Origin: an uncultured bacterium
GTDB taxonomy: Bacteria > Verrucomicrobiota > Kiritimatiellia > RFP12 > UBA1067
Direction: 5' to 3'
DNA: 64,000 nt
Assembly: GCA_902799955.1 (NCBI GenBank)
Contig: CADCCQ010000012.1
Coordinates: 1 to 64,000, forward strand
Positions 3,534-53,288 of this stretch are shown here, piece by piece. A program made the position numbers and the translations under genes. Each line of letters begins with the position of its first letter. Within the stretch, counting starts at the first letter, position 1. Below the pieces are notes generated by a model. That model worked only from the letters and a program-made list of their open reading frames with translations. It was not told the DNA's origin and did not search any database.

Positions 3534-3578
3534 GTTATTCCGTGTGTTTCGTGTATTCCGTGGTTTTGCAATTATCTC
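3534..3578. repeat. Dispersed 45-bp ATTCCGTG-type repeat, copy 1
   Basis: This 45-bp stretch (GTTATTCCGTG...AATTATCTC) recurs at 25450-25494 with only two mismatches. Both copies are intergenic and lie next to the 3' ends of genes. The unit is built from ATTCCGTG/TTCCGTGT-like short steps. Confidence 0.75.
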
Positions 3579-3749: not shown

Positions 3750-5762
3750 ATGACAGGTTTCGACATAGCGATGGCAGGGTTGCTCTCCTTTGGGCAGGTG
3801 ATACCCAGTGCACAGAGGGAGATCGTAAAGCACTCTGGTCTCCAGGTGATCCATGCGGACGGCGCGGTGACGCTCCGGCTGAAGGAGACGGGCCGGACGG
3901 AGTCCGCCATCGAGGGCGGACGTGTCGTGACCGTGAAGCTGCAGGACGAGCACTATCCCGTGTACATCACGCGGCATGTACGCACGTGGAACGACTGCGA
4001 CGCCGTGGAGACCTGGTACGAGCTGCGCCACGAGGAGCCGGGGCCGGTGAGGCTGCTCCGCGCCGACAGCTTCGCTTCGCGGATCAACTGCCGGGCCGGC
4101 GTCGTGAAGGTGCTCACGCTCACGGGCGTGTGGGCACTCGAGGGGAACATCTCGGAGGCGACCGTCGCGAACGGACAGATCGCGCAGTACCGTTCGCTCG
4201 CGGGCACGCGTGACGCCTGGGAGTCGAACGCCGCGATGATGGTGAGCTTCGGCGACGACGTGGACGAGGAACGCGGCAGGGTGCTCGGCGTGGCGCTGGA
4301 GTGGACAGGCACCACCGAGAAGCGCGTGCGGCGCAGCTGGAACGGACGCGAGACGGACGTCTTCGCCGGAATCGACATGGAGACGGGTCCGTACGTCCTC
4401 GACCCCGGCAAGACCTTCACCACGCCGCGGGCGATCATCGTGTGGTCCGAGAAGGGCAAGGGCGAGGTGTCGCGTCAGTACCACCGCTGGGCGCGCCGTC
4501 ACCTGATGCCGCACGGCGACGTTCTCCACCCCATCCTGCTCAACACGTGGGAAGGCTCGTATTTCAGCTTCACCGAGAAGACGCTCACCGACATGATGGA
4601 CGGCGTGAAGGAGATGGGCGGCGAGATGCTCGTCCTCGACGACGGCTGGTTCGGGAAGGGCAAGTACGCCCGCGACGACAAGAACCGCGACAAGGCCGGC
4701 CTCGGCGACTGGGTTGTGAACCCCGCGAAGCTGCCGCACGGCCTCGCCTGGCTCGCGGACGAGGCCGCCAAGCGCGGGCTCAAGTTCGGCCTCTGGGTGG
4801 AGCCGGAGATGTGCAACGTGAAGAGCTGGCTCGCCGAGGCGCATCCCGACTGGATCCTCCGCGAGCAGAACCGCTCGCTCCTCCTCGGGCGCGGCGGTTC
4901 GCAGGTGGTGCTCGACTACACGAACCCCGCCGTGCGCGAGAACATCTTCAACCAGCTTGACGCCGTGTACGCCCAGGTGCCCACGCTCGCCTACGTGAAG
5001 TGGGACAGCAACCAGAACATCGTCAACCCCGGCTCCACCTACCTGAAGCCCGACCGCCAGCCGAACCTCTGGTACGACTACACGATCGGCCTCTACGACC
5101 TCCTCGCGAAGCTCCAGGCGAAGCGTCCGCAGATCATGGTACAGGCATGCGCCTCCGGCGGCGGGCACATGGACTTCGGCTTCCTGCGCTATGCTGACGA
5201 GTTCTGGGCGAGCGACAACACCGACCCGTTCCGCCGCGTGTTCATCCAGTGGGGCGCGTCGCAGTTCTACCCCGCGAGCGCGATGGCCTGCCACGTCACG
5301 CGGCGCGGCTCGTCGATGAAGTACCGCTTCGACGTGGCCATGACGGGACGCATGGGCTTCGAGCTGCATCCGACGAAGCTTTCGAAGGAGGACGTCGAGT
5401 TCGCGAAGGCGGCCGTCGCGGACTACAAGCGCATCCGCCCGATCGTCCAGCGCGGCGACCTCTACCGCCTCGTCTCGCCGTACGGCGGCAGGATGTCCGC
5501 GCTCATGTTCGCGAGCGAAGACAAAAGCGGCGCGGCACTCTTCGCGCTCGGGCTCGACAAGGACATCACTGTCGAGGAGACGCTGCATCTGCGCGGGCTC
5601 GACCCGGACGCGAAGTACTCCGTGACCGAGATCAACAAGGGCGCCAAACTCCACGCCGAGCTTCCGAAGGAGCCGGTCGCAGGACGCACGCTCATGGAGA
5701 AGGGAATCGCCGTCAAGCTCTCCGGCAAGTTCGACTCCGCCTCGTTTGAGCTTAGGCGGTAG
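3750..5762 (+). CDS. Alpha-galactosidase, GH36 family
   Basis: Hydrolyses terminal alpha-galactosyl residues from oligosaccharides such as raffinose-type sugars or galactomannan side chains. The 670-residue product has the GH36 order: N-terminal beta-supersandwich, central (beta/alpha)8 barrel, C-terminal beta domain. The catalytic nucleophile is Asp419 in KWDSNQ (family KWDxNR) and the acid/base is Asp489 in ASDNTDP. The barrel stretch LVLDDGWFGKG is also typical. I chose ATG 3750 because a GAGAGG Shine-Dalgarno lies 9 bp upstream. ATG 3666 is in frame, only 9 bases after the -10, and would add 28 residues if the mRNA is leaderless. No signal peptide is visible from either start, so the enzyme is probably cytoplasmic. 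Confidence 0.93.
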   Translation: MTGFDIAMAGLLSFGQVIPSAQREIVKHSGLQVIHADGAVTLRLKETGRTESAIEGGRVVTVKLQDEHYPVYITRHVRTWNDCDAVETWYELRHEEPGPVRLLRADSFASRINCRAGVVKVLTLTGVWALEGNISEATVANGQIAQYRSLAGTRDAWESNAAMMVSFGDDVDEERGRVLGVALEWTGTTEKRVRRSWNGRETDVFAGIDMETGPYVLDPGKTFTTPRAIIVWSEKGKGEVSRQYHRWARRHLMPHGDVLHPILLNTWEGSYFSFTEKTLTDMMDGVKEMGGEMLVLDDGWFGKGKYARDDKNRDKAGLGDWVVNPAKLPHGLAWLADEAAKRGLKFGLWVEPEMCNVKSWLAEAHPDWILREQNRSLLLGRGGSQVVLDYTNPAVRENIFNQLDAVYAQVPTLAYVKWDSNQNIVNPGSTYLKPDRQPNLWYDYTIGLYDLLAKLQAKRPQIMVQACASGGGHMDFGFLRYADEFWASDNTDPFRRVFIQWGASQFYPASAMACHVTRRGSSMKYRFDVAMTGRMGFELHPTKLSKEDVEFAKAAVADYKRIRPIVQRGDLYRLVSPYGGRMSALMFASEDKSGAALFALGLDKDITVEETLHLRGLDPDAKYSVTEINKGAKLHAELPKEPVAGRTLMEKGIAVKLSGKFDSASFELRR

Positions 5763-5838
5763 AACTAAAGCCGCGCAGACGAGGAGCCAGTCAAGAAGAT
5801 GGCGTGACGGACAGACGATTCTCAAAAGGGGAGGCACA

Positions 5839-8151
5839 ATGAATGCAATGTTGACCAAATCGTGGAAGCATGTCATCGCAACCGCAGTCTTCTGCGTAGC
5901 GCTGGCGTCCTCGCCGTCGTATGCGGCTTCGCAGGTCAAGGGCGCGAAGCCCGTGGACATCGCCGTGTTCGTCGGCAACGGCGCGCGGAACATCGGCGCG
6001 TTCAGGTGGATCGAGATCGCGACGCGGGCCAAGGGCTGCACGGCGACCCTCGTCGACGGCGAGGCCGTCCGCAACGGCGCCCTCGACAAGGCGGACGTCC
6101 TCGTCGTGCCCGGCGGCTGGTCGGGCGACGAGTCAAAGGACCTTGGGGAGTCCGGGCGCGAGATGGTCCGGGCGTTCGTCCGACGCGGCGGCGGGTACAT
6201 CGGGACGTGCGCCGGATGCTGCCTGGCGATGGAGTCCGCCGGTTCCCACAAGGACATGCTGAACATGATCCCGTTCACGTTCGGCCCCGCGGGGGGCGCG
6301 GCGACCATGCCCGTCAAGTTCAACAAGAGGGCGCAGGAGCTCTGCGGCATAAAGCCGGGCGTGCAGAAGATCCGCTACCACGGCGGCCCCGTCCTGATGC
6401 CATCCAGGCCGGTCGCGGACGCCAACGTCGACGTGATCGCCGTCTACGCCGGCGACATCAACGCCTACAGCGACAAGCCGAGGCCGTCGATGGCGGGCCA
6501 GGCCGCAGTCGTGGCCGGCACCTACGGGAAAGGGCGGCTGTTCGTCAGCGCCGTCCATCCCGAAAGCGACGTCCACGACCACGAGATCCTCCGGCGCGCG
6601 TTCAGGTACGTCGCCGGCCGCGAGGTGACGTGGGACTATCCCCAGAGGAAGCGCGGCCAGCTCTCCGTCGGGTTCGTCACCGACCACTCGTTCGGCGTCG
6701 CCACGGCGAGGCTCGTCCAGCGGCTCGTCACGGAAGGCGAGTTCGACGTCGTCCCGATCAGCGCCGAGGTGATAGCTAAGAACGGCGCGCTTCGTCATCT
6801 CGACGCGGTGCTCGCCCCCGGCGGATGCCCTCCGGCGGAGGGGAAGGAGAAGCCCCCGAAGAACGGCCTCTACGGGGACAACCTGGGCCGGACGCGCGAG
6901 TTCATCGGGCGCGGCGGGCGCGTCTTCGCGTGGGGTTCCGCCGCGGAGGCGGCGAGGGCGTACTGCCCAGAGGTCGCATGCGTCAAGGACGCCGAGGCCG
7001 CGCTCGCGGCGCTTCGCGCCTTCGCGGCCGAGCCGGTCCCTCCGCCTCCGCCGCTTCCCGCCAAGGTGGCGAATCCCCTCAGGGCCGGCCTCTACCACGA
7101 CAAGAGCGGCGGCAACGGGCCGATCGCGGAGATGCTGGCGATCTCCCCCGAATACGAGCTCGTCATCCTCAGCGCGGCCGACTACGGGAACGGCGGGCTT
7201 GACGGAATCGACCTCCTCGTCCAGCCGGGCGGAAGCTGCATGGGCCAGTACAACGCGATGGGCACGAACGGAGTGGTGGCGCTCAGGAACTTCATCCTCG
7301 GCGGTGGGCGCTATTACGGAGTGTGCGCCGGCGCGTTCATGGGCACGCAGCTGACGCGGACGAAGAAGCCGCGTCTCGGGCTCGTCCCGTTCCGCGACGA
7401 CGCCCCGGCGCACTACCGCGGCGGCGGGCCGATCAAGATCGAGCTGACGAAGGAGGGCCAGGAGGTGTTCGAGGGCTCGGCGAAACATCGCGTCGTGGGG
7501 TACTTCGGCGGACCGGTGCTGGTGCCGGGCGACCCGGTCGAGAACACCGACGTGAAGGTGCTGGCGACGTACGCCGGGCGCACGATCAACAACGCGAGCA
7601 TGGAGCCCGTCGAGCCGATGAACGGCAAGGCGGCGTTCGTCGGCGGCACCGTCGGCAGGGGGCGCGTGTTCCTCTCGTGTCCGCATCCTGAGTTCACCGA
7701 GTGCACTTACGACATGGTGCGCTCCGGCATCAAGTACCTGACGGGCGTCGCGCCGTCGCCGGTGAACCGCGACAGGGTCCGCGGGGCGGTGTCGGTCCTC
7801 CTCGACCTCGCCAAGGACAACGACTCGCACCGCTACTACTACAACACGTTCATGCGCGACAGGCGCTTCGACGTCCGCACGGGCGTCAACGCCAACCAAT
7901 ACCCGCACGCCGACGCCGTCGTGTTCATGACGCCGGACGACTGCAGCATGGGTCCGTCGCTGCGCAGGTTCGTCCGCCGCGGCGGGACGCTCGTCGTCGT
8001 CGCCCGCACGGACCGCGAGCGAGAGGCCGCCGCGAAGATCGCCGGCGCGAAGGTCGTCGGCGCCCTCGCAGACATCCCAGATGCCATCCTGGGCAATCCC
8101 GCCACCCGCGTTGCGCGTGGGAAAGTAAATGAGGATAAATTGCTGAAGTAG
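5839..8151 (+). CDS. Secreted four-unit class I glutamine amidotransferase-like (BPL_N-type) protein
   Basis: ATG 5839 follows a strong AAAAGGGGAGG Shine-Dalgarno and opens a signal peptide (cleavage near SYAA-S), giving 770 residues. Four Rossmann-like units follow in tandem. Units 1 and 3 keep the nucleophile-elbow cysteine of the biotin-protein-ligase-N/GATase-like fold (GTCAGC, Cys124; GVCAGA, Cys496). Units 2 (about 280-410) and 4 (about 660-770) resemble the fold but lack the cysteine. Each full unit also has a GGP(V/I) strand and a TYGKGRLF or TVGRGRVF turn. Single BPL_N proteins are known; a duplicated active/degenerate pair in one exported chain is unusual. Function unknown, perhaps glycan binding or ThuA-like trehalose/sugar handling. 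The last residues, from GKVNEDK on, come from a dispersed intergenic repeat. Confidence 0.7.
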   Translation: MNAMLTKSWKHVIATAVFCVALASSPSYAASQVKGAKPVDIAVFVGNGARNIGAFRWIEIATRAKGCTATLVDGEAVRNGALDKADVLVVPGGWSGDESKDLGESGREMVRAFVRRGGGYIGTCAGCCLAMESAGSHKDMLNMIPFTFGPAGGAATMPVKFNKRAQELCGIKPGVQKIRYHGGPVLMPSRPVADANVDVIAVYAGDINAYSDKPRPSMAGQAAVVAGTYGKGRLFVSAVHPESDVHDHEILRRAFRYVAGREVTWDYPQRKRGQLSVGFVTDHSFGVATARLVQRLVTEGEFDVVPISAEVIAKNGALRHLDAVLAPGGCPPAEGKEKPPKNGLYGDNLGRTREFIGRGGRVFAWGSAAEAARAYCPEVACVKDAEAALAALRAFAAEPVPPPPPLPAKVANPLRAGLYHDKSGGNGPIAEMLAISPEYELVILSAADYGNGGLDGIDLLVQPGGSCMGQYNAMGTNGVVALRNFILGGGRYYGVCAGAFMGTQLTRTKKPRLGLVPFRDDAPAHYRGGGPIKIELTKEGQEVFEGSAKHRVVGYFGGPVLVPGDPVENTDVKVLATYAGRTINNASMEPVEPMNGKAAFVGGTVGRGRVFLSCPHPEFTECTYDMVRSGIKYLTGVAPSPVNRDRVRGAVSVLLDLAKDNDSHRYYYNTFMRDRRFDVRTGVNANQYPHADAVVFMTPDDCSMGPSLRRFVRRGGTLVVVARTDREREAAAKIAGAKVVGALADIPDAILGNPATRVARGKVNEDKLLK

Positions 8152-8251
8152 TATGGAAACAACATTGACAACTGTTGAGAAGAACGCCGCGTGGTTACGC
8201 GGCGCGAGAAAAAAAGTTGTTCCGGTTGTTTCCAGAAGAACTTATAGGCAA
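8119..8251. repeat. Dispersed structured element, copy 1
   Basis: The conserved parts are an AGTAAATGAGGATAA box (overlapping the upstream gene's 3' end), GGAAACAAC (8155-8163) pairing with GTTGTTTCC (8225-8233), an inner ACAACT/AGTTGT helix, an 8-bp CGCCGCGT/ACGCGGCG hairpin with a GGTT loop (8185-8204), and a trailing GAAGAACTTATAGGCAA box. Related copies lie at 40758-40926 (full) and 53144-53224 (partial). Confidence 0.75.
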
Positions 8252-8304
8252 GGGGCGGTGATGCAATCTTGTGAAGACAGACAAATGAAAAAGGAGAAAC
8301 AAAA

Positions 8305-25183: not shown

Positions 25184-25198
25184 TGGGGTCGGATACAA

Positions 25199-25494
25199 CA
25201 ATTCCGCTATTCCGCTATTCCACAATTCCATAATTCCACAATTCCACAATTCCATATCTCCGCACATGCTCTTTTTAACCACTTAACCACGGAATACACT
25301 GAATACACAGAATGGGAGGCTAGTTATTCCGTGTGTTCCGTGTATTCCACAATTCCACAATTCCATAATTCCATAATTCCATAATTCCATATCTCCGCAC
25401 ATGCTCTTTTTAACCACGGAATACACTGAATACACAGAATGGGAGGCTAGTTATTCCGTGTGTTCCGTGTATTCCGTGGTTTAGCAATTATCTC
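25199..25494. repeat. ATTCC octamer tracts and two copies of a ~95-bp repeat between lysA and the FadL-type gene
   Basis: An 8-bp microsatellite (ATTCCGCT, ATTCCACA, ATTCCATA) at 25199-25255 and again at about 25343-25390 alternates with two copies of a longer unit (25249-25348 and 25384-25475) that differ mainly by an extra TTAACCAC in the first. The second unit carries a perfect 15-bp inverted repeat AACCACGGAATACAC (25412-25426)/GTGTATTCCGTGGTT (25467-25481). The tail 25450-25494 matches 3534-3578. I see no gene in this 488-base gap. Confidence 0.85.
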
Positions 25495-32734: not shown

Positions 32735-34000
32735 ATGAATACCGCAGAATTCAAAGATTCGCCCCTCGGCCCCATCCCGCAGGATTGGGAGGTGAAGCGG
32801 CTGGGGGAGATAGCGCCTTTACAAAGAGGTTTTGACCTGCCGACAAAGGATCTGCAGGATGGGCCATTCCCCGTTGTCTACAGCAATGGCATTTGTAACT
32901 ACCATGTAGAAGCAATGTGTGACGCTCCTGGACTTGTTACTGGACGTTCAGGCACCATTGGGCATTTTACCTTTATTGAATCAGGTAGATATTGGCCGCA
33001 CAATACGGCTCTATGGGTTACAAGTTTCAAAGGTAATGATCCTTTATACATCAAGTATCTTTACGAGACGCTTCACTTTGAGAATTTCGCTACCGGTTCT
33101 GGCGTGCCAACTCTAAATAGGAATGCCATTCACGAATTTGAAGTTGCGTTACCATCAAAGATCGATGAACAGCAGCGCATAGCGGAGGCGCTGGGCGAGG
33201 TCGACAAACTAATCGAAAGCCTTGACGCGCAGATAGAGAAGAAGCGCAGGATCGCGCAAGGCCTCGCCCACGATTTGCTGGGAATGAGGAATGAGGAATG
33301 CGGAATGCGGAATGAGGAATGCGGAATGAGGAATGAACCCATCCGCCGCTTCCCCGGCTTCAAGGGGGAGTGGGAGAGAAAGGCACTCGATTCGGTTATC
33401 GATTTTGTCACGGCCCCCATTGCAACATCAAAGATTGATGTGGAAAAGTACATAAGTACAGATAATATGGTTCCCAATTTAGGTGGCGTAGAGCCAAACG
33501 CAAGCGCGGTACCTTATGCGAGCATCCGCGAATATAAAACTGGTGACATATTGCTTTCTAACATTAGGCCATATCTAAAAAAGATGTGGAGGGCTAATTG
33601 GGATGCTGGGTGCTCGTCCGATGTTCTTGTTCTCCGCCTTGTGACTGATTCTGTTGATAGTAGATTTTTATACCATACACTCTCTAGAGACGAATTCTTT
33701 GATTTCGTATCGTCCAAAGCGGTTGGTACTAAAATGCCGCGTGGAGATAAGAGGGTTATAGCTTCATTTAAAATTCAGGTTCCCACTATCGCCGAGCAGG
33801 AGGCGATAGCCGATGTGCTTGCGGCGGCAGATTCGGAGATCGCGGGGCTTGAGGCAAAGAAGCGCAAGTACGAGCAAATCAAATCCGGCATGATGCACGA
33901 CCTGCTCACTGGCAAGGTGAGGGTGAATGAGGAATGCGGAATGGGGAATGCGGAATGGGGAATGCGGAATGGGGAATGCGGAATGAGGAATGAGGAATGA
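32735..34000 (+). CDS. hsdS: Type I restriction-modification specificity subunit with repeat-bearing central spacer
   Basis: Sets the DNA target. The 421 residues hold two target-recognition domains, each followed by a conserved helix (DEQQRIAEALGEVDKLIESLD at about 145-165, and AEQEAIADVLAAADSEIAGLE near 350-370). Between the first helix and the second domain is a 7-residue tandem repeat (GMRNEEC, about residues 183-201) and the C-terminal tail repeats it as GMGNAEW and GMRNGEC. The DNA shows the same GGAATG(A/C) units. In EcoR124-type systems a repeat number change in this spacer alters the gap in the target. The next gene overlaps by ATGA. Confidence 0.88.
   Translation: MNTAEFKDSPLGPIPQDWEVKRLGEIAPLQRGFDLPTKDLQDGPFPVVYSNGICNYHVEAMCDAPGLVTGRSGTIGHFTFIESGRYWPHNTALWVTSFKGNDPLYIKYLYETLHFENFATGSGVPTLNRNAIHEFEVALPSKIDEQQRIAEALGEVDKLIESLDAQIEKKRRIAQGLAHDLLGMRNEECGMRNEECGMRNEPIRRFPGFKGEWERKALDSVIDFVTAPIATSKIDVEKYISTDNMVPNLGGVEPNASAVPYASIREYKTGDILLSNIRPYLKKMWRANWDAGCSSDVLVLRLVTDSVDSRFLYHTLSRDEFFDFVSSKAVGTKMPRGDKRVIASFKIQVPTIAEQEAIADVLAAADSEIAGLEAKKRKYEQIKSGMMHDLLTGKVRVNEECGMGNAEWGMRNGECGMRNEE
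33281..33337 (+). repeat. 21-bp tandem repeat inside hsdS (2.7 copies)
   Basis: Units start at 33281, 33302 and 33323 (the last is 15 bp). Each begins GGAATG(A/C)GGAATGAG and encodes GMRNEEC in frame. Confidence 0.9.
33924..34000 (+). repeat. GGAATG(A/C/G) microsatellite at the 3' end of hsdS
   Basis: About ten GGAATGN-type 7-bp steps encode the last ~25 residues of HsdS and supply the start codon of the next gene. Confidence 0.85.
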
Positions 34001-34344
34001 AGACGAACGAAAACATTGTTGTTGTAAAAAGTAAGCGGTTTGCACTAGAAGTGATAGCCACCTACAAGAAACTCGTGTCCGAACGAAAGGAATATGTCCT
34101 TTCTAAGCAGTTTTTGCGTAGCGGCACAAGTATTGGCGCGAATATCCGTGAAGCACAACGCGGGCAATCAAAGGCTGATTTTATCGCCAAAATGTCCATT
34201 TCACTGAAAGAGGCAGATGAATCGGCATACTGGCTTGAATTGCTCCATGAAAGCGGCTACCTTGACCCTCAGGAGTTTAAGATGCTGTATGCACTCTGCG
34301 ATGAATTGATTCGCATCTTGGTATCAATAACTAAACATTGTTGA
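33997..34344 (+). CDS. Four-helix-bundle protein (S23/IVP-like)
   Basis: A 115-residue protein of the family first seen in 23S rRNA intervening sequences, related in fold to the Avd accessory protein of diversity-generating retroelements. It shows the signature SKQFLRSGTSIGANIREAQRGQS and KMSISLKEADESAYWLELL. ATG 33997 overlaps the HsdS stop (ATGA). The gene is bordered by GGAATG repeats upstream and by their reverse complement at 34375-34410, so it may have entered as a unit. No reverse transcriptase is nearby. Confidence 0.85.
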   Translation: MKTNENIVVVKSKRFALEVIATYKKLVSERKEYVLSKQFLRSGTSIGANIREAQRGQSKADFIAKMSISLKEADESAYWLELLHESGYLDPQEFKMLYALCDELIRILVSITKHC

Positions 34345-40723: not shown

Positions 40724-40757
40724 AGTAAAAAACCCACCGTCCGCGCTCGCTGCGCAC

Positions 40758-40926
40758 GGGAATGTAAAGGAGGATAAGTTTCAATGACGAGGAAACAACT
40801 ATGACAACTGATAAAAACAACTCTTGCCATCCGGGCGCAACTCGGCACCCGCTTTCAAGAGCGCCGCGCGGTTACGCGGCGCGAGAAAAAGTTGTTCCGG
40901 TTGTTTCCTGAAGAACTTATAGGCAA
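40758..40926. repeat. Dispersed structured element, copy 2
   Basis: Box AATGTAAAGGAGGATAA, GGAAACAAC (40791-40799) pairing with GTTGTTTCC (40900-40908), ACAACT (40804-40809) pairing with AGTTGT (40890-40895), hairpin CGCCGCG/CGCGGCG (40862-40881) and tail GAAGAACTTATAGGCAA. It is 39 bases longer than copy 1 between the inner helix and the hairpin. Confidence 0.75.
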
Positions 40927-51640: not shown

Positions 51641-51750
51641 CGCCAACTGACAAAGTGAAAACACGCCAACTGACAAAGTGAAAACGCGCCAACTGACAAA
51701 GTGAAAACGCGCCAACTGACAAAGTGAAAACACGCCAACTGACAAAGTGC
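51641..51750. repeat. Five tandem 23-bp direct repeats upstream of the DUF4143 ATPase
   Basis: Units CGCCAACTGACAAAGTGAAA plus three bases start at 51641, 51664, 51687, 51710 and 51733; the fifth breaks off after CAAAGTG and runs straight into the TTGACA of the promoter. 23 bp is about two helical turns, as expected of operator or iteron arrays. Confidence 0.9.
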
Positions 51751-51751
51751 A

Positions 51752-51780
51752 TTGACAAAACCAAGGAAATCTGGTATAAT
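51752..51780 (+). promoter_or_regulatory. Strong promoter of the DUF4143 ATPase gene
   Basis: TTGACA (51752-51757), 17-bp spacer, TATAAT (51775-51780) with extended TG: full consensus. The -10 ends 10 bases before ATG 51791. Confidence 0.85.
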
Positions 51781-51790
51781 CACGTGTGCT

Positions 51791-53071
51791 ATGGCAGAAT
51801 ATAGAAAAAGAGTCGCCGATGGCATTCTGATGGAGAAATTGGAAGCTACCGGAGCGGTGATTGTCGAAGGTCCAAAGTGGTGTGGTAAAACCACCACGGC
51901 GGAGCGTGTCGCCAAAAGCGTCATCTACATGGCGGATCCAAAGAAGCGGGAGCGGAACCTCCTGTATGCACGGCTCGAACCGGAGAAGATTCTCGACGGA
52001 GAATGTCCTAGGTTGGTGGACGAGTGGCAGATCGCGCCCATCCTGTGGGATGCGATTCGCCACAGGGTTGACCATGAGGACGTTTGTGGAAGGTTCATAT
52101 TGACGGGTTCCGCAGTGCCCGCGAAGCGCGACGACATGAAGCACACGGGGACGGGCAGGTTCTCGTGGCTCAAGATGCGTCCGATGTCGCTGTGGGAGTC
52201 CGGCGACTCCCTTGGAAGTGTTTCCCTTGAGAGGCTGTTCGATGGGAATGTCCTGCGTATTGCGGACGCTGCAGACCACAAGCTCGACGACATCGCCTTT
52301 TTCGTTTGTCGCGGCGGATGGCCCAAGGCCGTGCAGTTCTCGAAGCGGCGACCTGCGCTAGAGCAGGCGTTCAACTATGTGGATGCTGTCGCCGAGTCGG
52401 ACATCTCAAGGGTGGATGACGTATTGCGGAACCCGGACAGAACAAGGAGAATCATGAAGTCATATGCCCGGCTTCAGGGAAGCCAGGCCACGGCGGCTGT
52501 CATAAAGGCGGACATGGGTGCCAACGAGGATTCCAGTTTCACGGACGTGACGCTTCATTCCTACTTGAACGCCCTGCGGAAGATATTTGTGGTCGAGGAC
52601 ATGCCGGCGTGGAATCCGAACCTTCGCTCGAAAGTCGCCATAAGGACGTCTGACACTCGGTACTTCGTCGATCCATCTATAGCGACCGCCGTGATGGGGC
52701 TCGGGCCGTCCGCGCTTATGGACGAGCTGCCCACGTTCGGACTTCTCTTTGAGGCGCTGGTTATGCGCGATTTGCGCGTGTATGCCGCCGTCCCACACGG
52801 GGAGGTCAGGCACTACCGCGACAAGAACGGCCTTGAGTGCGATGCCGTAATCCACTTGAGGGATGGGAGATATGGGCTGGTGGAGGTCAAGATGGGTGGT
52901 GAGGCACTGGTGGAGGAGGGGGCCCGGGTCCTCAATGAACTCGCCTCCCTTATCGACACGAAGCGGATGAAAAAACCATCGTTCAAGATGGTCGTGACGG
53001 CGGTTGGTGATTGCGCATACGCCCGCGAAGATGGCGTTCTTGTTTGTCCGATTGGATCGCTGAAGCCGTAA
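51791..53071 (+). CDS. AAA_14/DUF4143 ATPase
   Basis: 426 residues. Walker A EGPKWCGKTTTAE (about 24-36), Walker B-like PRLVDEWQIAP, sensor LTGSAVP, then the DUF4143 C-terminal domain with FGLLFEALVMRDLRVYA and a PD-(D/E)xK-like end (HYRDKNGLECDAVI, GLVEVKMG). The family is abundant and often duplicated in gut bacteria; its role is unknown, with nuclease or defence-related ideas. Codons are less GC-rich than those of the flanks. No Shine-Dalgarno; the start lies about 4 nt after the predicted transcription start. Confidence 0.85.
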   Translation: MAEYRKRVADGILMEKLEATGAVIVEGPKWCGKTTTAERVAKSVIYMADPKKRERNLLYARLEPEKILDGECPRLVDEWQIAPILWDAIRHRVDHEDVCGRFILTGSAVPAKRDDMKHTGTGRFSWLKMRPMSLWESGDSLGSVSLERLFDGNVLRIADAADHKLDDIAFFVCRGGWPKAVQFSKRRPALEQAFNYVDAVAESDISRVDDVLRNPDRTRRIMKSYARLQGSQATAAVIKADMGANEDSSFTDVTLHSYLNALRKIFVVEDMPAWNPNLRSKVAIRTSDTRYFVDPSIATAVMGLGPSALMDELPTFGLLFEALVMRDLRVYAAVPHGEVRHYRDKNGLECDAVIHLRDGRYGLVEVKMGGEALVEEGARVLNELASLIDTKRMKKPSFKMVVTAVGDCAYAREDGVLVCPIGSLKP

Positions 53072-53143
53072 CCGCTGCGCGTTTTATTCGTCGCTTGGGT
53101 TTGGGTGCATCTGTATAATTAACCACAACATCCTCTAATGATG

Positions 53144-53224
53144 GGAAACAACTTGTCTGAAACAACTTCCCTTTGCGGCGGGCAACCGCCCGCCGATTCA
53201 AGAACGCCGCGTAGTTACGCGGCG
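53144..53224. repeat. Dispersed structured element, partial copy 3
   Basis: GGAAACAAC (53144-53152), AACAACTT, an added 8-bp hairpin CGGCGGGC/GCCCGCCG (53176-53195, loop AACC), then TTCAAGAA and the conserved hairpin CGCCGCGT/ACGCGGCG (53205-53224). The 3' GTTGTTTCC arm is missing. A possible -10 TATAAT lies at 53114-53119. Confidence 0.7.
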
Positions 53225-53279
53225 AGGCGCCCCTTGGGTTTAATCCATGAAAATTGGAAGCGCAAAAGCGCGGAAATTG

Positions 53280-53288
53280 TGATATAAT
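53280..53288 (+). promoter_or_regulatory. Extended -10 promoter of the HIT gene
   Basis: TGATATAAT ending 7 bases before ATG 53296; the message should be leaderless. Confidence 0.7.

Follow-up and report, generated by a model that had tools for sequence, protein, structure and literature searches.

Short palindromic repeats shape the intergenic DNA of many bacteria, and, to our knowledge, the origin of composite palindromic repeats is poorly known. The BOX elements of Streptococcus pneumoniae have conserved ends around a variable interior, the interiors being copies of one boxB module, and IS110 elements that target REPs are also known.

GTAG REPs have been described in the PVC superphylum and in Opitutus (PMC3733652), and REP dimers lie within longer palindromes in Anabaena variabilis and Halothiobacillus neapolitanus (PMC3733652). 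Members of the IS200/IS605 group insert into the lagging-strand template (PMC6006769). ISKra4 is a member of the Mutator-like p-MULT 4 group (PMC3942029); 8-9 bp repeats are reported for elements of this kind, as is, for some members of the ISKra4 group, insertion upstream of sigma-A promoters with a constant spacing (PMC3942029).

We analysed the repeats found in a window of 64,000 nucleotides, corresponding to positions 1-64000 of contig C12 of a draft genome of 3.8 Mb. These are real, multi-copy, lineage-restricted, composite non-coding mobile elements, in which a palindromic cassette, GGAAACAAC..GTTGTTTCC, occurs in two outer elements: frame A, which is REP/IS200-IS605-like, and frame B, which is a MITE of the ISKra4 type. 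The unusual point is the frame-and-cassette organisation, within otherwise known kinds of element. Compared by description alone, frame A resembles the BOX elements in its conserved ends and variable interior, but its interiors are unrelated modules. The Anabaena and Halothiobacillus repeats likewise place a palindrome inside a palindrome, but in those cases one repeat occupies one host palindrome, whereas here several cassettes occur in one frame and one cassette occurs in two frames (PMC3733652).

Results

Repeat copies in the window

The initial annotation described three copies of one element, the third of them partial. All of the parts that it named in copies 1 and 2 are present where it placed them, and copy 3 is indeed incomplete, since it carries GGAAACAAC, the inner hairpins and GTTACGCGGCG without the GTAAATGAGGATAA box, GTTGTTTCC and GAAGAACTTATAGGCAA. 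However, the assignment to a single element gave way to two mobile frames with a common inner cassette, as copies 1 and 2 differ from copy 3 in the outer element (Table 1). Copies 1 and 2 also reach further left than positions 8119 and 40758, where an extra GC-rich hairpin is located. The left end of frame A, at window positions 8096-8151, supplies the C-terminus and the stop codon of the upstream ORF 5746-8151.

Table 1. Positions of the repeat copies and their parts in the 64,000-nucleotide window
Feature	Positions	Strand	Remarks
Copy 1, frame A + GGAAACAAC cassette	8096..8252	+	left end overlaps 3' end of upstream ORF 5746-8151
Copy 1, frame A left-end hairpin CCCGCGTTGCGCGTGGG	8105..8121	+	from the sequence and the consensus in relatives
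Copy 1, frame A left box GGGAAAGTAAATGAGGATAA	8119..8138	+	
Copy 1, inner palindromic cassette GGAAACAAC..GTTGTTTCC	8155..8233	+	hairpin CGCCGCGTGGTTACGCGGCG at 8185-8204; without second hairpin
Copy 1, frame A right end AACTTATAGGCAAG	8239..8252	+	
Copy 2, frame A + GGAAACAAC cassette	40734..40926	+	leader of arabinofuranosidase-like gene 40926/40958-42503
Copy 2, frame A left-end hairpin	40741..40759	+	
Copy 2, frame A left box GGGAATGTAAAGGAGGATAA	40758..40777	+	
Copy 2, inner palindromic cassette	40791..40908	+	two hairpins, CGGGCGCAACTCGGCACCCG (40832-40851) and CGCCGCGCGGTTACGCGGCG (40862-40881)
Copy 2, frame A right end AACTTATAGGCAA	40914..40926	+	
Copy 3, left 9-bp target duplication CTTGGGTTT	53094..53102	n/a	
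Copy 3, frame B (ISKra4-type MITE) + left half of cassette	53103..53232	+	internal deletion; right end cut to GGCGCCC (53226-53232)
Copy 3, right 9-bp target duplication CTTGGGTTT	53233..53241	n/a	
-10-like TATAAT	53283..53288	+	begins 51 bases past copy 3 end; precedes HIT-family ORF, ATG 53296

The left box and the inner hairpin gave two and three matches in the window, respectively, against 0.00 in dinucleotide shuffles, which rules out chance. Further copies in the genome, whose absence would have spoken against a repeat family, are present: the tail GAAGAACTTATAGGCAA was found at 14 genomic places with at most two mismatches (0 for the reversed control), and a 168-nt consensus gave 47 matches in the 3.8-Mb genome, ranging from full-length copies at 97% down to fragments.

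Frame A and its insertion point

In copies 1 and 2, frame A is made up of a short GC-rich hairpin, GGGAATGTAAATGAGGATAA, an interior and AACTTATAGGCAAG. In relatives, the same GC-rich hairpin and GGAATGTAAATGAGGATAA also occur where the GGAAACAAC part is missing; other sequence comes next, and A(C/G)TTATAGGCAAG after it. Since the left part recurs in this way, we defined frame A as a unit of its own, which begins directly after a (T/G)TAG and consists of CCCGCCGCCCGCGCTTCGCACGGGAATGTAAATGAGGATAACTT, the interior and AAGTTATAGGCAAG. The minimal frame A gave no folding signal (z 0.1), and its left hairpin and right stem are predicted. The left box was detected in 35 of the 162 genomes of the order, and the controls gave no match. 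When one genome per GTDB species was searched, exact matches to this box were almost confined to rumen Kiritimatiellae records, and the approximately five matches outside them are probably due to chance. Some of the rumen Kiritimatiellae records with such matches are titled Lentisphaerae or Verrucomicrobia.

The left flank of 97 frame A elements was TTAG in 34, GTAG in 16, AAAG in nine, CTAG in six and CAAG in five, with others making up the remainder, while the right flank is free sequence. In repetitive surroundings, when frame A was removed together with one AG, the host repeat was restored in 5 of 56 loci, and only along the predicted join, as judged by a strict 16-mer test (mean 0.32 and maximum 2 in 200 mismatched controls), and a few more such loci were recognised by eye. 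Frame A ends in CAAG, and its tandem copies abut exactly, as CAAG/CCCGCC, with the slash marking the join. In several loci, frame A is inserted precisely 3' of (T/G)TAG. A check for target-site duplications, proposed in the initial annotation, had a divided outcome, in that copy 3 and frame B gave a 9-bp duplication, whereas for frame A no duplication longer than the ambiguous AG was found.

Frame A also exists in a second version, which has the box GGAACGTTCATCTYGATAAC and the right end GTTATAGGTAAG and lies head-to-tail with the ordinary one (L157, 1468; L159, 1728; L170, minus strand, 1832). At another locus (L074/L307, G039:C93:5346-6088), the start of an IS110-family transposase gene (PF01548, 38 bits, cut-off 29) lies within the frame A loop, about 300 bases in, and the IS110 element there looks as if frame A had served as its target, as REPs do for known IS110 elements. 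IS110 was rejected as the mover of frame A: one IS110 copy lies in an A loop, but the other IS110 loci read do not. An integron attC site was likewise rejected, because the right end GTTATAG/CTTATAG, inspected by eye, does not fit GTTRRRY.

Interiors and the inner cassette

The interiors of 76 frame A elements fell into 13 clusters or singletons, in addition to short loops. Six of these interiors are strong inverted repeats (fold z -5 to -9) that are long, mutually unrelated and shared between genomes, namely the GGAAACAAC cassette (15 elements), TTGCTTTCGCT..AGCGAAAGCAA (12), TTGTTCACAAAT (6), AATGTTGCCAATG (6), CAGGATTACAGGATT (5) and ACACAGAGACACAGAGG (1), and the remaining ones are mostly low-complexity words. 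At four loci frame A is nearly empty, with the loop TGATGT. The palindromic cassette GGAAACAAC...GTTGTTTCC is the part common to all three copies in the window, its right arm being deleted in copy 3, and in other genera it is also found within frame B in either orientation (L345-L347). Since one frame A is located inside a TTGC cassette (L147), the nesting is mutual. These data establish the frame/cassette architecture.

A third level of nesting was also observed, in which the cassette's inner CGCCGCG hairpin holds a hairpin-rich segment of 60-150 nt, GGGAATACGCCTGTCGCGAAGCGATCAGG..CGCAAGGCCCCGTGCGCGGC, in its loop (L009, C6:~471-704; L033/L036, C3:17964-18217; L098).

Frame B

Copy 3 carries the frame B ends GGGCGCATCTG, as do other copies of the same core, and is flanked on both sides by the exact 9-bp CTTGGGTTT. 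An internal deletion has cost it the right arm of the core; the left end and the final seven bases at the right are still in place. In a test for target-site duplications, six of nine two-ended frame B elements scored at least 8, compared with 0 of 300 mismatched pairs, and three further elements have exact 9-bp duplications. Matches to the frame B ends numbered 33 in the own genome, 155 in G091 and 240 in G092, with controls near zero. In G089, a full-length IS (L341) has the frame B ends around a 438-aa ORF; the best NCBIfam match of this ORF was the ISKra4 transposase (148.8 bits, E 2.5e-43), below the curated cut-off of 205. No ISKra4-like gene was found in the draft genome of the window itself. 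Furthermore, a -10-like hexamer begins 49-54 bases beyond 25 of 69 frame B ends, most often at 51, whereas shuffles would lead one to expect about 0.9 such ends. These results demonstrate that frame B is a promoter-targeted MITE of the ISKra4 type, and the location of copy 3 before the HIT-family gene is explained by this target choice. Frame B shares with the ISKra4-type ISs and MITEs the 8-9 bp duplications, the long inverted ends, the fixed promoter spacing and a full-length relative with a putative ISKra4-like transposase, but differs from them in being non-autonomous, with a large copy number and unrelated palindromic cores, and in that the transposase scores under the NCBIfam cut-off and is absent from the window's draft genome (PMC3942029).

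Discussion

We consider it probable that the repeats are non-autonomous mobile DNA, with frame B as an ISKra4-like MITE, frame A as a separate TAG-inserting element moved by single-strand transposition, and the GGAAACAAC..GTTGTTTCC cassette lodged in both. In this scheme, an ISKra4-like transposase would act in trans on the GGGCGCATCTG inverted ends of frame B, which would land a fixed distance upstream of promoters and duplicate 9 bp there. Frame A, a short separate element, would be placed precisely 3' of (T/G)TAG with no target duplication beyond the ambiguous AG, most likely by single-strand transposition of the IS200/IS605/REP kind through a putative enzyme. The palindromic module, seated in the frame A loop and in the middle of frame B, would travel with both, having presumably entered the frames by insertion. 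We infer that these repeats have no required host function.

The initial annotation had left open whether the repeat is a cis-regulatory RNA or a short non-autonomous mobile element, and only the mobile part of this statement was borne out, by the exact 9-bp duplication at copy 3, the ends shared with a full-length IS of a relative, the restoration of host repeats upon removal of frame A at several loci and the occurrence at dozens of unrelated sites. If frame A and its interior were instead a family of regulatory RNAs, acting as leaders or attenuators of the downstream genes with the variable interior as an unconstrained apical loop, one could readily account for the finding that, between tandem flanking genes, the copies are co-oriented with these genes by 52 to 11 and often lie just before a start codon, and also for folding that is better than in shuffles (z -5.0 for copy 1 and -3.5 for copy 2). 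At one stem position of frame A, moreover, 38 of 56 elements have C-G and 13 have G-C, although this switch may reflect two subfamilies. However, in 13 related frame-A-plus-cassette copies, a sample of limited power, almost no stem pair covaries: two-sided changes were seen in just 2 of 26 pairs, the covariation term was -0.92 kcal/mol, and the majority of stem columns do not vary, a pattern that fits recognition ends rather than a structure under selection. The genes downstream bear no relation to one another (arabinofuranosidase-like, sugar kinase-like, MFS-like, methionine-synthase-like and others), the element is missing in front of three orthologues of the copy-2 gene, and a search of Rfam gave no match at the gathering score. 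The position of copy 3 before a promoter is, in turn, accounted for by ISKra4-type targeting. As for the sense bias, the orientation of frame A follows the regional coding strand by 29 to 9 (38 cases, up to 20 kb of context) and positive GC skew in 27 of the 38, and in regions running antisense the two local orientations are balanced (3 to 3). IS200/IS605 elements insert into the lagging-strand template, and such insertion would yield this strand bias, the coding and replication strands being not fully separable here, whereas insertion behind TAG stop codons was rejected as its source, since just 5 of 59 xTAG sites end an ORF of more than 100 codons. The little covariation, the orthologous downstream genes without the element and the regional strand polarity thus argue for mobile DNA, and a regulatory RNA appears very improbable. 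A comparison of orthologous loci, which the annotation had also suggested, gave no clean empty site: orthologues of the gene downstream of copy 2 are not syntenic within the genus, and in the only close genome pair compared, the candidate empty site in G139 for a frame A copy of G138 proved to be a deletion with a remnant.

Given mobile DNA, frame A could be an ordinary REP moved by a canonical RAYT (REP-associated Y1 transposase). Frame A and the REP/RAYT systems are alike in their intergenic, multi-copy nature, in the (T/G)TAG in front, which is GTAG in 16 of 97 elements, and in the GC-rich hairpin near the left end, but frame A is longer, has a fixed right end and an exchangeable interior, which are not REP features, adjoins no RAYT, is preceded by TTAG more often than by GTAG, and has its tag several bases off the hairpin foot, whereas the GTAG or GTGG tag of REPs lies at 0-2 nt from it (PMC3733652, PMC6006769). 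Y1 transposases (PF01797) were detected in 11 of 14 genomes, but the left box of frame A was present at none of the 30 loci read, and no PF01797 gene was found in G138, which is rich in frame A. Nor was an enzyme for frame A, or a PF01797 gene between or beside its ends, found in these searches, and movement by a canonical RAYT seems unlikely to us. Non-autonomous elements of the IS200/IS605 type resemble frame A in their insertion 3' of a tetranucleotide without clear duplication, their defined last tetranucleotide (here CAAG) and their left-end hairpin, which is predicted in frame A, and the strand bias of frame A is compatible with a lagging-strand template as in this type; the differences are that no TnpA was found, that the right-end stem is open to large inserts and that guide sequences were not recognised. 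The interiors, in turn, might not have been inserted but have arisen locally, by slippage, template switching or recombination among low-complexity words of the intergenic DNA, with the ends on either side maintained for some other reason. Several interiors are in fact low-complexity words that are also common outside frame A (CAACTTTTCAAC, GTCTGAAGTC and CCACCCAACC), but the six long, unrelated inverted-repeat interiors shared between genomes and the presence of the GGAAACAAC cassette in frame B in both orientations make us doubt a local origin, which we nevertheless regard as a possible minority explanation.

On the reading of frames and cassettes as mobile DNA, we tentatively propose, as a possibility that we would not yet favour, that frame A may belong to a new class of elements that are mobilised as single strands and have an open docking site in the right-end stem. 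Its loop might take up unrelated palindromic elements without halting movement, so that frame A would capture, carry and spread other non-coding repeats, including the GGAAACAAC cassette shared with the ISKra4-type MITE. The same ends, nearly empty or with about a dozen interiors, together with one interior in two unrelated frames, provide a natural series with which hairpin loops can be tested as landing sites for mobile palindromes. A further gain is a family of ISKra4-type MITEs whose promoter spacing is clear, and the analysis accounts for look-alike "leaders" on many rumen Kiritimatiellae genes, which are probably not riboswitches.

Additional observations

Two tandem frame-A-plus-cassette units lie directly before a methionine-synthase-like ORF at C14:36704-36931 (L029/L031) and have, at first sight, the look of a tandem riboswitch. 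A small conserved peptide encoded in the element (reading MTTDTTTLAIRAQLGARF...LIGK) was considered and rejected, as near-identical copies differ in length in ways that break the reading frame. The intergenic space is full of short-period word repeats (ATTCCACA, GGAATGAG, TTAGTCG and CAACTTTT), seen in the window at 3534-3578, 25184-25494 and 33266-34029 and in the flanks of many loci, and one stretch of 66 nt recurs exactly, at 25283 and 25410. Such words are a frequent landing place of frame A. Finally, a tandem array with the 23-bp unit CGCCAACTGACAAAGTGAAAACG occupies window positions 51641-51755, before an AAA_14/DUF4143 ORF (51752-53071).
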